A stretch of 64,000 nt of DNA from Sandarakinorhabdus sp. AAP62. GTDB lineage: Bacteria > Pseudomonadota > Alphaproteobacteria > Sphingomonadales > Sphingomonadaceae. Position numbers and translations under genes: made by a program. Below are positions 29,069-32,621 of the stretch, in pieces (the stretch's first letter is position 1; each line of letters starts with the position of its first letter). The stretch is from contig NZ_ANFY01000009.1 in the NCBI RefSeq assembly GCF_000331225.1, forward strand, positions 62,001 to 126,000. Direction: 5' to 3'. The notes under the pieces were generated by a model. It saw nothing but the letters and a program-made list of their open reading frames with translations. It searched no databases and was not told where the DNA came from.

Positions 29069-30619
29069 ATGAAGGCTTTCCTGTCACGCGATCGCATCAC
29101 CGCACCGCCCGGTTTTGACCGCTGGCTGGTGCCGCCTTGCGCGCTGGCCATCCACCTGTGCATCGGCATGGCCTATGGTTTTTCGGTGTTCTGGTTGCCG
29201 CTCAGCCATGCGCTGGGCGCGCCGGCCTGCACTGGGCTTGGCGAGGCCTTGATCAGCACCGGCTGCAACTGGCGGGTGAGCGATCTCGTCTGGGTCTACA
29301 CGCTGTTCTTCGTCGTCCTTGGCCTGTCGGCGGCGCTGTTTGGCAGTTGGGTAGAGCGCGTTGGTCCGCGCCGGGCCGGGCTGCTGTCGGCCGCCTGCTG
29401 GTGCGGCGGGATGGCGGTGGGCGCACTGGGCGTGTTCCTGCACCAGCTATGGCTGTTCTGGCTGGGTGCCGGCGTGCTGGGCGGCATCGGCCTCGGCATC
29501 GGCTATATCACGCCGGTTTCCACCCTGATCAAATGGTTTCCCGATCGGCGCGGTCTGGCCACCGGCATGGCGATCATGGGCTTTGGCGGCGGCGCCATGG
29601 TCGGCAGCCCGGCGGCAGACCGGCTGATGGCGGCCTTCGCCGGCCCGGGCGAAGCCGGCGTCTGGCAGGCGATGCTGATGCTGGCCGGCGTCTATGCGCT
29701 GTTCATGACGGCCGGCGCCCTGGGTTTCCGCCTGCCAGCGCCGGGCTGGGCGCCGCCCGGCAAGGCCGAAGTGATCGCCGGCGGCCGCTTTGTGCCGATC
29801 GGCGTGGCAAGTCGTACGCCGCAATTCTGGCTGGTCTGGTGCGTGTTGCTCTGCAACGTCTCGGCCAGTATCGGGATCATCGGCATTGCCTCACCAATGG
29901 CACAGGAAATCTTTGGCGGCGGCCTGTTCGGAGAACCGTCACGCTTTGCCGATTTCACCGAAACCCAGAAGGCCGCTGCCGCAGCTGCGGGTGCCGGTTT
30001 CGTTGGCCTGATCAGCCTGTTCAACATCGCCGGCCGCTTCTTCTGGGCCAGCCTGTCGGATCGGATCGGCCGCAGGGCGATGTATGCCGCCATCCTGGCG
30101 CTGGGCGCGGCTTGCTATGGCTTAGCCCTACCCGGCACACCGACCCTCCCGCTGTTCGTGGCGGTGTTCGCGCTCATCGCCTCCATGTATGGCGGCGGCT
30201 TTGCTGCGGTGCCGGCCTGGCTGGCCGATCTGTTCGGCACCAGGCAGGTGGGCGCCATCCACGGCCGCCTGCTCACCGCCTGGTCCACCGCCGGCATTCT
30301 CGGCCCGCTGCTGGTCGCCTATGTGCGCGATGCGCGCCTGGCCGCAGGCGTGGCACGCGAAGCGGTCTATGGCCCGATCTTCCTGATGCTGGCCGGCCTG
30401 CTGGCGCTCGGCCTGGTGGCGGCGCTGCTGGTCAAGCCGGTGCGCGCCGATCTTTGGCAACAGGACGCGGAATCGCCGCCGGCGCTCGCATCAACGACTG
30501 CAGCCGCCGTACCGGCGGCGTGGGGCCTGCGCTTGCTGGCCTGGGCCACCGTGCTGGCGCCCTTGGCGTGGGGCGCCAGCTTCACGGTGCAAAAGGCGGC
30601 CGTGCTGCTCGCGCAATGA
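29069..30619 (+). CDS. MFS transporter, oxalate/formate antiporter (OFA) type
   Basis: A 516-residue membrane carrier with 12 predicted helices and a long loop between helices 1 and 2 that contains three Cys (PACTGLG, GCNW). The loop motif WFPDRRGLATGMAIMGFGGGAMVGSP after helix 4 is the hallmark of the OFA group, which carries oxalate, formate, lactate or other monocarboxylates. A second-half motif (GRFFWASLSDRIGRRAMY) is also present. The start at 29069 (MKAFLSRDRITAPP) is chosen because earlier codons cross the repeat. Its stop codon lies against a terminator read on the other strand. Confidence 0.9.
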   Translation: MKAFLSRDRITAPPGFDRWLVPPCALAIHLCIGMAYGFSVFWLPLSHALGAPACTGLGEALISTGCNWRVSDLVWVYTLFFVVLGLSAALFGSWVERVGPRRAGLLSAACWCGGMAVGALGVFLHQLWLFWLGAGVLGGIGLGIGYITPVSTLIKWFPDRRGLATGMAIMGFGGGAMVGSPAADRLMAAFAGPGEAGVWQAMLMLAGVYALFMTAGALGFRLPAPGWAPPGKAEVIAGGRFVPIGVASRTPQFWLVWCVLLCNVSASIGIIGIASPMAQEIFGGGLFGEPSRFADFTETQKAAAAAAGAGFVGLISLFNIAGRFFWASLSDRIGRRAMYAAILALGAACYGLALPGTPTLPLFVAVFALIASMYGGGFAAVPAWLADLFGTRQVGAIHGRLLTAWSTAGILGPLLVAYVRDARLAAGVAREAVYGPIFLMLAGLLALGLVAALLVKPVRADLWQQDAESPPALASTTAAAVPAAWGLRLLAWATVLAPLAWGASFTVQKAAVLLAQ

Positions 30620-30648
30620 AAAGGGGCCGCCGGTTGCCCGACGACCCC
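30618..30648 (-). terminator. GNRA-capped intrinsic terminator of the micro-ORF transcript
   Basis: On the minus strand GGGGTCGTCGG pairs with CCGGCGGCCCC (two G-U pairs) around the loop GCAA, a GNRA tetraloop, followed by TTTTC. It lies 40 bases past the micro-ORF stop. The plus-strand reading has no U-run, so it serves minus-strand transcription. Confidence 0.85.
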
Positions 30649-30688
30649 AAAACATTGTCATCCGTCCACGAAGGGCGGTGTCTGGTGT

Positions 30689-30754
30689 TCAGCGCGCCCC
30701 GACCTTGACCGGGGCCACCAGCGCCTTCGCGCCGTGAATGAAGCAATGAGACAC
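30689..30754 (-). CDS. 21-residue micro-ORF with a perfect extended Shine-Dalgarno
   Basis: GTG at 30754 opens 21 codons ending TGA at 30689. The peptide begins MSHCFIHGAKAL and ends APVKVGAR: basic, one Cys, two His, no membrane segment. It is preceded by AAAGGAGGTGATCCA (30755-30769), complementary to the last 14-15 bases of 16S rRNA, with seven bases between AGGAGG and GTG, and followed by an intrinsic terminator. It thus has every sign of a free-standing, strongly translated unit. I do not recognise the peptide. It could be a functional micropeptide, a leader, or the coding part of a dual-function small RNA. Confidence 0.65.
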   Translation of the reverse strand: MSHCFIHGAKALVAPVKVGAR

Positions 30755-30769
30755 TGGATCACCTCCTTT
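30755..30769 (-). promoter_or_regulatory. Extended Shine-Dalgarno, near-complete match to the 16S 3' end
   Basis: AAAGGAGGTGATCCA on the minus strand; ordinary genes in this window show 4-6 matching bases. The plus strand therefore reads GGATCACCTCCTTT like the 16S tail, but the flanks do not resemble 16S rRNA, so it is a ribosome site rather than an rRNA remnant. Confidence 0.8.
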
Positions 30770-30772
30770 CAG

Positions 30773-30785
30773 CTTGTTGAACAAG
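30773..30785. promoter_or_regulatory. 13-bp palindrome between micro-ORF and MOSC gene
   Basis: CTTGTT-G-AACAAG is a perfect palindrome. It lies four bases upstream of the micro-ORF ribosome site and 25 bases before the divergent MOSC ATG. It could be an operator for either side. Confidence 0.4.
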
Positions 30786-30810
30786 GCCGTCAGTGTCAGA
30801 GGAATTCGCC

Positions 30811-31467
30811 ATGATCGCAAGTGGCATAATCACGCAGCTGCGTATCGGCCGGCCGCAGCCATTGCCGGGCCATCCCATGCTCTCTGCCTATCGCCGCCAG
30901 CCCGTGAGCGGCCCGGTGGCGGTGCACGCGCTGGGGCTGGAGGGTGATCAGGTTGGCAACACCCGCGTGCATGGCGGGCCGGAAAAAGCGATCTATGCCT
31001 ATCCCGTGTCAGGTTATGCGGCGTGGATGGCCGAATTCCCGGCGCTTGCGGATCGCTTTCACTTGGGCGCGATGGGCGAAAATCTGGCGGTCGATGGCGT
31101 TGATGAAACCAGCCTGTGCCTGGGCGACGTCATCCGCTGCGGCACGGCCACGCTGCAGATTGCCCAGATCAGGGAGCCCTGCTCCACCTTTGCCGCCGCC
31201 ATGGGCACCACGCGGGTAGTGAAGGCCATGACCCGTTCAGGTCGCTGCGGCTGGTATTTCCGGGTGCTCGAGGGCGGTGCCATTGCACCGGGCGATGGCC
31301 ATGACGTGATCGAGCGGCCCAATCCGGCCTGGCCGATCAGCCGTTTCACGCCGATCGCTGCCGGCAAGGCTGGCCGCGTGGAAGAACTGACCGAGCTTGC
31401 CGGTCTGCCCGGCCTCAGTGCCTATTGGCGGGCGAAGCTTGCGCGCCGCCTGGCGGATCAGCAATAG
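30811..31467 (+). CDS. MOSC domain protein (YiiM-like)
   Basis: A 218-residue protein with the MOSC fold (molybdenum cofactor sulfurase C-terminal). The marker stretch GLEGDQVGNTRVHGGPEKAIYAYP and the Cys in IREPCSTF, the sulfur/Moco ligand position, are clear. The GENLAVDGVDE and LGDVIRCGTATLQIAQIREPC blocks match YiiM-type proteins, which reduce N-hydroxylated compounds using Moco. ATG 30811 with AGAGGA upstream is preferred over GTG 30793. The 3' end overlaps the convergent membrane-protein gene by 53 bases. Confidence 0.9.
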   Translation: MIASGIITQLRIGRPQPLPGHPMLSAYRRQPVSGPVAVHALGLEGDQVGNTRVHGGPEKAIYAYPVSGYAAWMAEFPALADRFHLGAMGENLAVDGVDETSLCLGDVIRCGTATLQIAQIREPCSTFAAAMGTTRVVKAMTRSGRCGWYFRVLEGGAIAPGDGHDVIERPNPAWPISRFTPIAAGKAGRVEELTELAGLPGLSAYWRAKLARRLADQQ

Positions 31468-32477: not shown

Positions 32478-32558
32478 ACTGCCGGCAAGGCCGGCCGAAC
32501 TGCCGGTAGGCCCGGCCAAACCGCCGGTAGGCCCGGCCAAACCGCCGGTAGGCCCGGA
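32478..32558. repeat. Tandem 21-bp hairpin repeat running into the tRNA-Ile 3' end
   Basis: Units of period 21 start at 32478, 32499, 32520 and 32541. The consensus is ACCGCCGGTAGGCCCGGCCAA. Each contains the mini-hairpin GCCGG-TAGGC-CCGGC. The last unit merges with the tRNA acceptor end (GGTAGGCCCGG), so the array looks like copies of the tRNA 3' end walked downstream on the transcribed strand. The unit farthest from the tRNA is the most diverged. Confidence 0.85.
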
Positions 32559-32621
32559 GGGACTCGAACCCCCAACCAAGCCGTTATGAGCGGCCTGCTC
32601 TAACCATTGAGCTACAGGCCC
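32549..32621 (-). tRNA. tRNA-Ile (anticodon CAT, lysidine-modified type)
   Basis: A full cloverleaf of 73 bases. Acceptor GGGCCTG pairs with CGGGCCT (two G-U pairs), D-arm GCTC AATGGTTA GAGC, anticodon arm with loop CTCATAA (anticodon CAT), and T-arm with loop TTCGAGT. D-stem and anticodon context (AGCTCAATGGTTAGAGCAGGCCGCTCATAA) closely follow E. coli ileX rather than tRNA-Met. So TilS would convert C34 to lysidine to read AUA. CCA is not encoded; the discriminator A is followed by CCG. Confidence 0.92.

Follow-up and report, generated by a model that had tools for sequence, protein, structure and literature searches.

A structured RNA gene related to Caulobacter CC2171 in Sandarakinorhabdus, with an extended Shine-Dalgarno sequence and a short reading frame kept without its peptide

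In Sandarakinorhabdus sp. AAP62, the minus strand at about 30786–30619 of the 64,000-nucleotide stretch of DNA analysed here (the window) holds a compact, free-standing small gene consisting of a 17-base complement to the end of 16S rRNA, a GTG start codon, 21 codons, a stop and a GNRA-capped terminator. The genome amounts to 3.13 Mb in 22 contigs. The neighbours, named from Pfam, are a convergent gene for an MFS transporter, the stop codon of which is touched on the other strand by the TTTT of the terminator (30622–30619), and a gene for a MOSC-domain (YiiM-like) protein, also on the opposite strand. The sole tRNA found in the window, a tRNA-Met (CAT), lies at 32547–32621 on the minus strand. 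From upstream to downstream, the small gene and its promoter-like region comprise the following parts.

30816–30821, minus strand: promoter-like -35 element CTTGCG, with CTTG starting 51 bases 5' of the Shine-Dalgarno sequence
30792–30798, minus strand: promoter-like -10 element TGACACT; by reading, TGACAYT stands at the matching place in most sequences of the genus
near 30786, minus strand: probable transcription start, placed from the promoter-like elements
30773–30785, minus strand: leader with the palindrome CTTGTTCAACAAG, the conserved portion of which is CAACAA
30754–30770, minus strand: extended Shine-Dalgarno sequence GAAAGGAGGTGATCCAG, the exact complement of the same-genus 16S 3' end CTGGATCACCTCCTTTC
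30689–30754, minus strand: reading frame of 21 codons, from GTG (30754–30752) to TGA (30691–30689)
30744–30748, minus strand: 5' strand of helix P1, CATTG, in codons 3–4; invariant in the genus, and covered by a class-wide pairing test
30716–30729, minus strand: 5' strand of helix P3, within the frame; covariation in the genus alignment
30696–30715, minus strand: P4 hairpin, within the frame; covariation in the genus alignment
30669–30680, minus strand: 3' strand of P3, CACCGCCCTTCG, past the stop codon; genus alignment
30653–30657, minus strand: 3' strand of P1, CAATG, immediately 5' of the terminator; genus alignment and class-wide pairing test
30619–30648, minus strand: intrinsic terminator GGGGTCGTCGG-GCAA-CCGGCGGCCCC-TTTT, with stem 30648–30638/30633–30623 and TTTT at 30622–30619

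Much of this layout had been described in a first-pass annotation, and the palindrome (30785–30773), the seven bases between GGAGG and GTG, the 21 codons with their start and stop, and the GNRA-capped terminator with a T-run reaching the MFS stop codon are all present on the minus strand as it claimed. Its broader description of a free-standing gene with a terminator and an extreme Shine-Dalgarno sequence likewise holds up against the comparisons reported below, in which the gene proves conserved and has a promoter-like site. The complementarity to 16S rRNA is real and slightly longer than the 14–15 bases that it gave. Since the assembly contains no other GGATCACCTCCTT, its own 16S end is taken to be absent, and the 16S of another genome of the genus (G001) was used instead; there the end reads ...CTGGATCACCTCCTTTCTAAGG / CTGCGGCTGGATCACCTCCTTTCTAAGG, complementary to 17 bases of the element. 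That end is the reason for counting 17 bases, a count that includes a terminal C belonging possibly to the mature 16S end and possibly to a precursor. GAAAGGAGGTGATCCAG and the start codon share one base, the last of the former and the first of the latter.

Such a segment is rare in the genome, as AAAGGAGGTGATCC occurs once on either strand, and the shorter word AAGGAGGTG occurs 12 times vs 53 times for the reversed word. The duplex with the 16S tail is predicted at -31.0 kcal/mol, vs -10.1 kcal/mol for AAGGAGG. Among 77 class-level rows, departures from the Shine-Dalgarno sequence at columns 0–14 preserve pairing in 23 cases and break it in 9, the pairing-preserving changes being A to G at column 11 (12 cases), C to T at column 14 (7) and A to G at column 1 (4). 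Column 15, which faces the following base of 16S, varies freely (A 47, G 19, C 5, T 6), and C or T, found in 11 of the 77 rows, would not pair there. In 217 of 220 extracted elements, the distance to the start codon is the same; extraction itself fixed the word AAGGAGGTG plus a start codon at 13–16 bases, and the Rfam model discussed below weights the Shine-Dalgarno sequence, so the invariance of this word and of the start is not independent evidence.

The CTTGCG/TGACACT pair resembles a promoter, and by this likeness transcription would begin near 30786. A CTTG is found 38–58 bases upstream in 62 of 140 non-redundant elements, vs 8 of 140 in a control stretch, and 50 of these 67 occurrences fall at 48–51 bases. 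CAAC lies within 14 bases 5' of the Shine-Dalgarno sequence in 117 of the 140. The palindrome noted by the first-pass annotation is present here and is not conserved as a palindrome, for relatives in the genus carry GTGTTCAACAACAC, GAGTTCAACAACTC or GAGTTCAACAATAC in place of CTTGTTCAACAAG and keep the CAACAA part.

The annotation did not recognize the family of this gene; that can now be corrected, as a distant relationship to Rfam CC2171 is identifiable. At a relaxed threshold, the window copy matches RF01867 "CC2171", a Caulobacter sRNA, over model positions 1–159 of 159 (56.5 bits, E 1.6e-11). It has the full-length architecture of that family (Shine-Dalgarno block, P1, terminator) and shares its order of parts, an AACAA leader, a GAAAGGAGGUGAUCCAGUGUCUCAUUG block, a P1 pair within the Rfam structure and the terminator. 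The inner helices differ, however, and the Rfam entry is an sRNA gene without a reading frame. The score lies below the curated cut-off of 75 bits, and for that reason the window copy is not filed as a member; as judged from sequence and structure models, it is clearly homologous to CC2171, as a divergent relative.

Among 14 named control genomes, RF01867 matched only Caulobacter vibrioides, and among 385 alphaproteobacterial genomes it gave matches at or above the curated cut-off in 13 and at E <= 1e-3 in 85. The survey of the class returned 92 matches, 90 loci of which were examined, with G297 and the second match of G303 left out. The pattern AAGGAGGTGRTCNNNTGTC matched in 93 of the 385 genomes (94 matches), and its reversed control in one; 92 of the 93 have one match, and only G071 has two. 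Seventeen genomes were found by the pattern alone, and the loci were read in 14 of these, excluding G300, G381 and G385. After three genomes with nothing beyond a terminator-only match had been taken out, the union of the RF01867 and pattern searches came to 99 of 385. A scan of named genomes gave at least 120 matches, and carriers among those listed include Sphingomonas, Novosphingobium, Erythrobacter, Brevundimonas, Methylobacterium, Bosea, Microvirga, Azospirillum and Roseomonas. In some Sphingomonadaceae, two elements occur in one genome, one of the MSHC type and one of an 18-codon MSHG type, as in the pairs L074/L153, L151/L178 and L051/L216 (Sphingomonas naasensis, Sphingomonas sp. Leaf21 and G071).

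A 191-base stretch matches 32 of 60 relatives, some of them by chance within other genes or by the terminator only; loci L023 and L031 look like chance matches of the former sort, and among 60 RF01867 loci, L221, L223, L226, L227, L230, L233, L240 and L241 look terminator-only. A further Rfam match, to BjrC68 (22.7 bits), covers the terminator only and was rejected. In the genus, the MOSC gene adjoins the element at 22 of 23 loci (the remaining one, L020, ends early) and the MFS gene at 11 of 23; in the other genera compared, only the block from the Shine-Dalgarno sequence to the start stays similar.

In a sample of the phylum, the pattern was found in 82 of 398 genomes (reversed control, one), six of them outside Alphaproteobacteria. 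Two of these six, G455 and G684, have 18-codon elements of the same build (L254 and L255), and within the family of G455 the element occurs in two of 59 genomes, both already counted. The Shine-Dalgarno sequences of L254 and L255 begin with TAAGG, matching the CCTTA of their own 16S ends; as TAAGG is present also in some alphaproteobacterial elements (L231, L260), this match is only suggestive. The other four, L256–L259, were rejected, since there the same Shine-Dalgarno and start word opens long reading frames, presumably genes for 2-oxoacid:ferredoxin oxidoreductase subunits. One locus, L134, comes from a record titled Candidatus Kuenenia stuttgartiensis; its match position equals that of G323:C40 in the alphaproteobacterial sample, and the title looks wrong.

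The RNA is strongly structured, as far as can be judged from folding and covariation: P1 is supported across the class, and helices running through the frame covary in the genus. The fold is better than all 200 shuffles (z -3.58, for a stretch slightly longer than the presumed RNA). Folded from the presumed start, the RNA has P1, P3, the greater part of P4 and the terminator in its lowest-energy structure, and its Shine-Dalgarno sequence is partly paired to the leader; the slightly longer stretch folds otherwise, with the Shine-Dalgarno sequence paired to the post-stop strand CACCGCCCTTCG. Single-sequence folds thus pair that segment in part with one or the other partner, and therefore it may not be freely open.

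In an alignment of 20 sequences of the genus (181 columns), the structure scored, consisting of P1, P3, P4 and the terminator, is paired in 96.4% of 717 cells vs 87.8% in shuffled alignments, with a covariation of 0.382 vs 0.208 and two-sided changes in 79 cells, at 17 of 36 pairs. None of 500 shuffles reaches the real structure on any of five measures, although relatedness among the sequences inflates the shuffle tests, and slid structures reach at most 60% paired cells and 0.149 covariation. Compensatory changes affect six of 12 pairs in P3 (93.3% of cells paired), four of eight in P4 (93.8%) and seven of 11 in the terminator (100%). P1, of five base pairs here, is invariant with its partner in all 20 sequences and so shows no variation in the genus. 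Across the class, its 5' strand pairs with its own pre-terminator partner at -12.4 kcal/mol, vs -9.2 kcal/mol (sd 0.24) with the partners of other elements (0 of 5000 permutations; n=125 non-redundant), in a test restricted to elements with a recognized terminator (200 of 214). The own partner ranks in the best 5% for 22 and in the best 10% for 30 of the 125, and examples of the pair are CAUUGUC:GACAAUG and CAUGAAU:AUUCAUG. TCN occupies the second codon in 76 of 79 class-level rows; by reading, the UC of this codon can pair in many elements with a GA 5' of the terminator, and this pairing would account for the preference.

An internal anti-Shine-Dalgarno strand was rejected as a universal feature (mean z -0.84; 31 of 166 non-redundant elements ranking within the best 5 of 100 shuffles). 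A Caulobacterales/Rhizobiales-type group shows it clearly, as CTGGATC-nnn-GCCTC at a fixed position, but overall it is weak. Because the covarying partner of the post-stop strand in the genus is the frame (P3), sequestration of the Shine-Dalgarno sequence is kept only as an alternative fold. A hairpin between the Shine-Dalgarno sequence and codons 4–6, proposed by RNAalifold, is G-U-rich and by eye absent from other lineages, and was not adopted.

Conservation in relatives had been made the touchstone of the first-pass annotation, and start, frame and stop are indeed kept. The first in-frame stop falls at codons 14–36 in 77 of 79 class-level rows, vs 24 and 20 of 79 in the other two frames, the count for one of these being lowered by stop codons that the fixed start block contains. 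When a non-redundant class-level set is read from codon 6, the stop falls at 14–36 in 59 of 59 elements vs 33.9% expected from shuffles, the other two frames giving 21 of 59 and 26 of 59; frames of more than 40 codons (two of the 79 class-level rows) were excluded beforehand. Among all 220 extracted elements, six have such frames, five of them signal-peptide-like and one spurious (L134), and the frame, duplex, hairpin and P1 tests were run without these six. The stop precedes the terminator in 199 of 200 elements. Within the genus, the frame of L013 is longer (26 codons) by a multiple of three, and TGA is replaced by TAA in L003, L018 and L019.

The peptide itself behaves differently. Beyond their first residues, peptides are nearly wholly different between lineages, and in the genus the differences in codons 6–21 of 19 sequences are spread evenly over the codon positions (626/581/578; 352/209/257 in single-change codons). 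The synonymous fraction of single-change codons in the genus is 0.340 vs 0.289 expected; as a yardstick, the neighbouring MOSC gene gives 0.793 vs 0.288. Among further groups, five gave values and a sixth gave no pairs, the MSHG group standing at 0.228 vs 0.297 and four MSHC groups at 0.133–0.278 vs 0.259–0.280. By this test, purifying selection on the peptide was not found in the genus or in the five further groups, and the annotation's suggestion of a micropeptide, if selected for its sequence, is not borne out. Its other suggestions, a ribosome-binding RNA or a dual-function small RNA with a translated frame and regulation by base pairing in trans, may yet hold, the maintained frame being the part of the latter observed here. 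Nineteen of 214 elements, all from outside the window genus, carry a hairpin with a CARC loop at +57 to +60 bases relative to the start. Eleven of the 19 are in frame 0, two in frame 1, three in frame 2 and three past the stop; several come from near-relative pairs, and two further matches lie near terminators. Since the peptide shows no constraint and this hairpin stays fixed while the frame shifts, it is nucleotides, and not residues, that appear to be kept. In Azospirillum and others (L113, L150, L165, L185, L236 and L271), frames of 55–59 codons have, by eye, a signal-peptide-like start; these elements look as though they have turned into genes for small secreted proteins, and there the protein may matter.

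Several explanations can be weighed against these observations. That the element is a micropeptide gene, with the 21-residue peptide as product and the strong Shine-Dalgarno sequence for high output, is distinctly unlikely: the maintained start, frame and stop would suit it, as would the 55–59-codon frames of some Azospirillum-type relatives, but no clear synonymous excess appears in any of the six groups, the peptides diverge almost completely, and an RNA motif, the CARC hairpin, holds its position while the reading frame shifts beneath it. A short frame followed by a terminator could also point to a type I toxin, or to a leader peptide or attenuator acting on a neighbour. In the window, however, the MFS gene downstream is convergent and the MOSC gene is on the opposite strand, the downstream frames of 142 elements show no co-directional bias (42 same strand, 63 opposite, 37 unclear), and the peptides are neither conserved nor, by eye, consistently hydrophobic, all of which makes this reading very improbable.

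In two other readings the frame is secondary. If the RNA were a sponge or decoy that merely occupies free 30S subunits, with the short frame letting them go, the complement to the 16S tail at a predicted -31 kcal/mol, the single pattern match in 92 of 93 matching genomes of the class and Shine-Dalgarno departures that mostly keep pairing would all be expected; yet a pure decoy needs neither a start nor a stop, all 59 of the non-redundant elements keep the frame, and very high abundance would be required, so that we think this improbable. An ordinary base-pairing sRNA, with the 5' Shine-Dalgarno sequence as only a stabilizer (STAB-SD-like) and the frame incidental, also seems rather unlikely. 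It would accord with the filing of the Caulobacter relative as an sRNA in Rfam, with a Shine-Dalgarno sequence near the probable 5' end and with structure as the main conserved feature, but not with frame maintenance far exceeding that of shuffles and of the other two frames, nor with the one start-codon spacing in 217 of 220 elements, as qualified by the extraction rule. Because the stop position is kept while the peptide is not conserved, a translation-coupled structured RNA is favoured over a micropeptide.

The explanation put forward here, with moderate confidence, is that of a structured RNA, homologous to CC2171 and built for ribosome entry, whose state would be set by ribosome capture and short translation. 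On this explanation, 30S subunits would be captured on the 16S-complementary segment. Only a few bases separate the beginning of P1 from the start codon, so that P1 lies where an initiating ribosome must be and initiation would open it; the ribosome would then pass about 20 codons of irrelevant identity and exit at a stop 5' of the P1 3' strand. The RNA would thus have two forms, closed when folded and open when translated, and the proportion of each would depend on how many free 30S subunits are available or on the initiation rate. Candidate outputs are altered stability or exposure of the RNA, or the withdrawal of 30S subunits from other messages. A more specific and tentative version makes of the element a ribosome gauge: its pairing would take in the entire free 16S tail, an initiating 30S subunit would open it, and it would possibly report or buffer free 30S. 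Should that doubtful step be right, the frame might be kept only for ribosome entry and exit, translation rather than the peptide being the signal. The carriers of such a gauge would, just as speculatively, be Alphaproteobacteria, with a patchy scatter of relatives from beyond the class.

Known systems resemble parts of this arrangement. In the STAB-SD of Bacillus (cry3A leader), a strong Shine-Dalgarno sequence near the 5' end binds 30S subunits and protects the downstream mRNA. The window element likewise has a strong Shine-Dalgarno sequence near its probable 5' end and, unlike STAB-SD, comes with a start codon, frame and terminator of its own. The rnTrpL/peTrpL dual-function sRNA of Sinorhizobium meliloti (PMC10117765) is likewise small, alphaproteobacterial and equipped with a short frame, but peTrpL is leaderless and a functional peptide, whereas the present element combines an extreme Shine-Dalgarno sequence with a peptide that shows no constraint. 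The sibling sRNAs SisA-D of Caulobacter, as described in PMC12559287, are small alphaproteobacterial RNAs with a motif tied to Shine-Dalgarno pairing; theirs is an anti-Shine-Dalgarno seed, in contrast to the Shine-Dalgarno sequence itself here. Further literature for comparison is found in PMC5988900, PMC5082802 and PMC5521070.

For Caulobacter, the accessible text of Schrader et al. 2014 (PMC4117421) reports 133 ncRNAs, the intergenic ones not translated by profiling, and two earlier ncRNAs that are translated, the names of which are not given there; as far as that text goes, the profiling counts against a translated RNA. Two papers, PMC5596092 and PMC11701678, carry CC2171 in tables, one of Rfam entries and one of predictions for Mesorhizobium. 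No description of a CC2171 reading frame was found in the literature searched, the scope of which leaves out Landt et al. 2008, so that an earlier mention is possible.

Distant relatives of CC2171, a family catalogued as a Caulobacter sRNA, are spread over many lineages of Alphaproteobacteria, and the combination of a near-maximal Shine-Dalgarno sequence with a frame kept open without conservation of its sequence is an unusual pattern. If the gauge reading were true, these bacteria would sense or buffer their translation capacity through a dedicated RNA.
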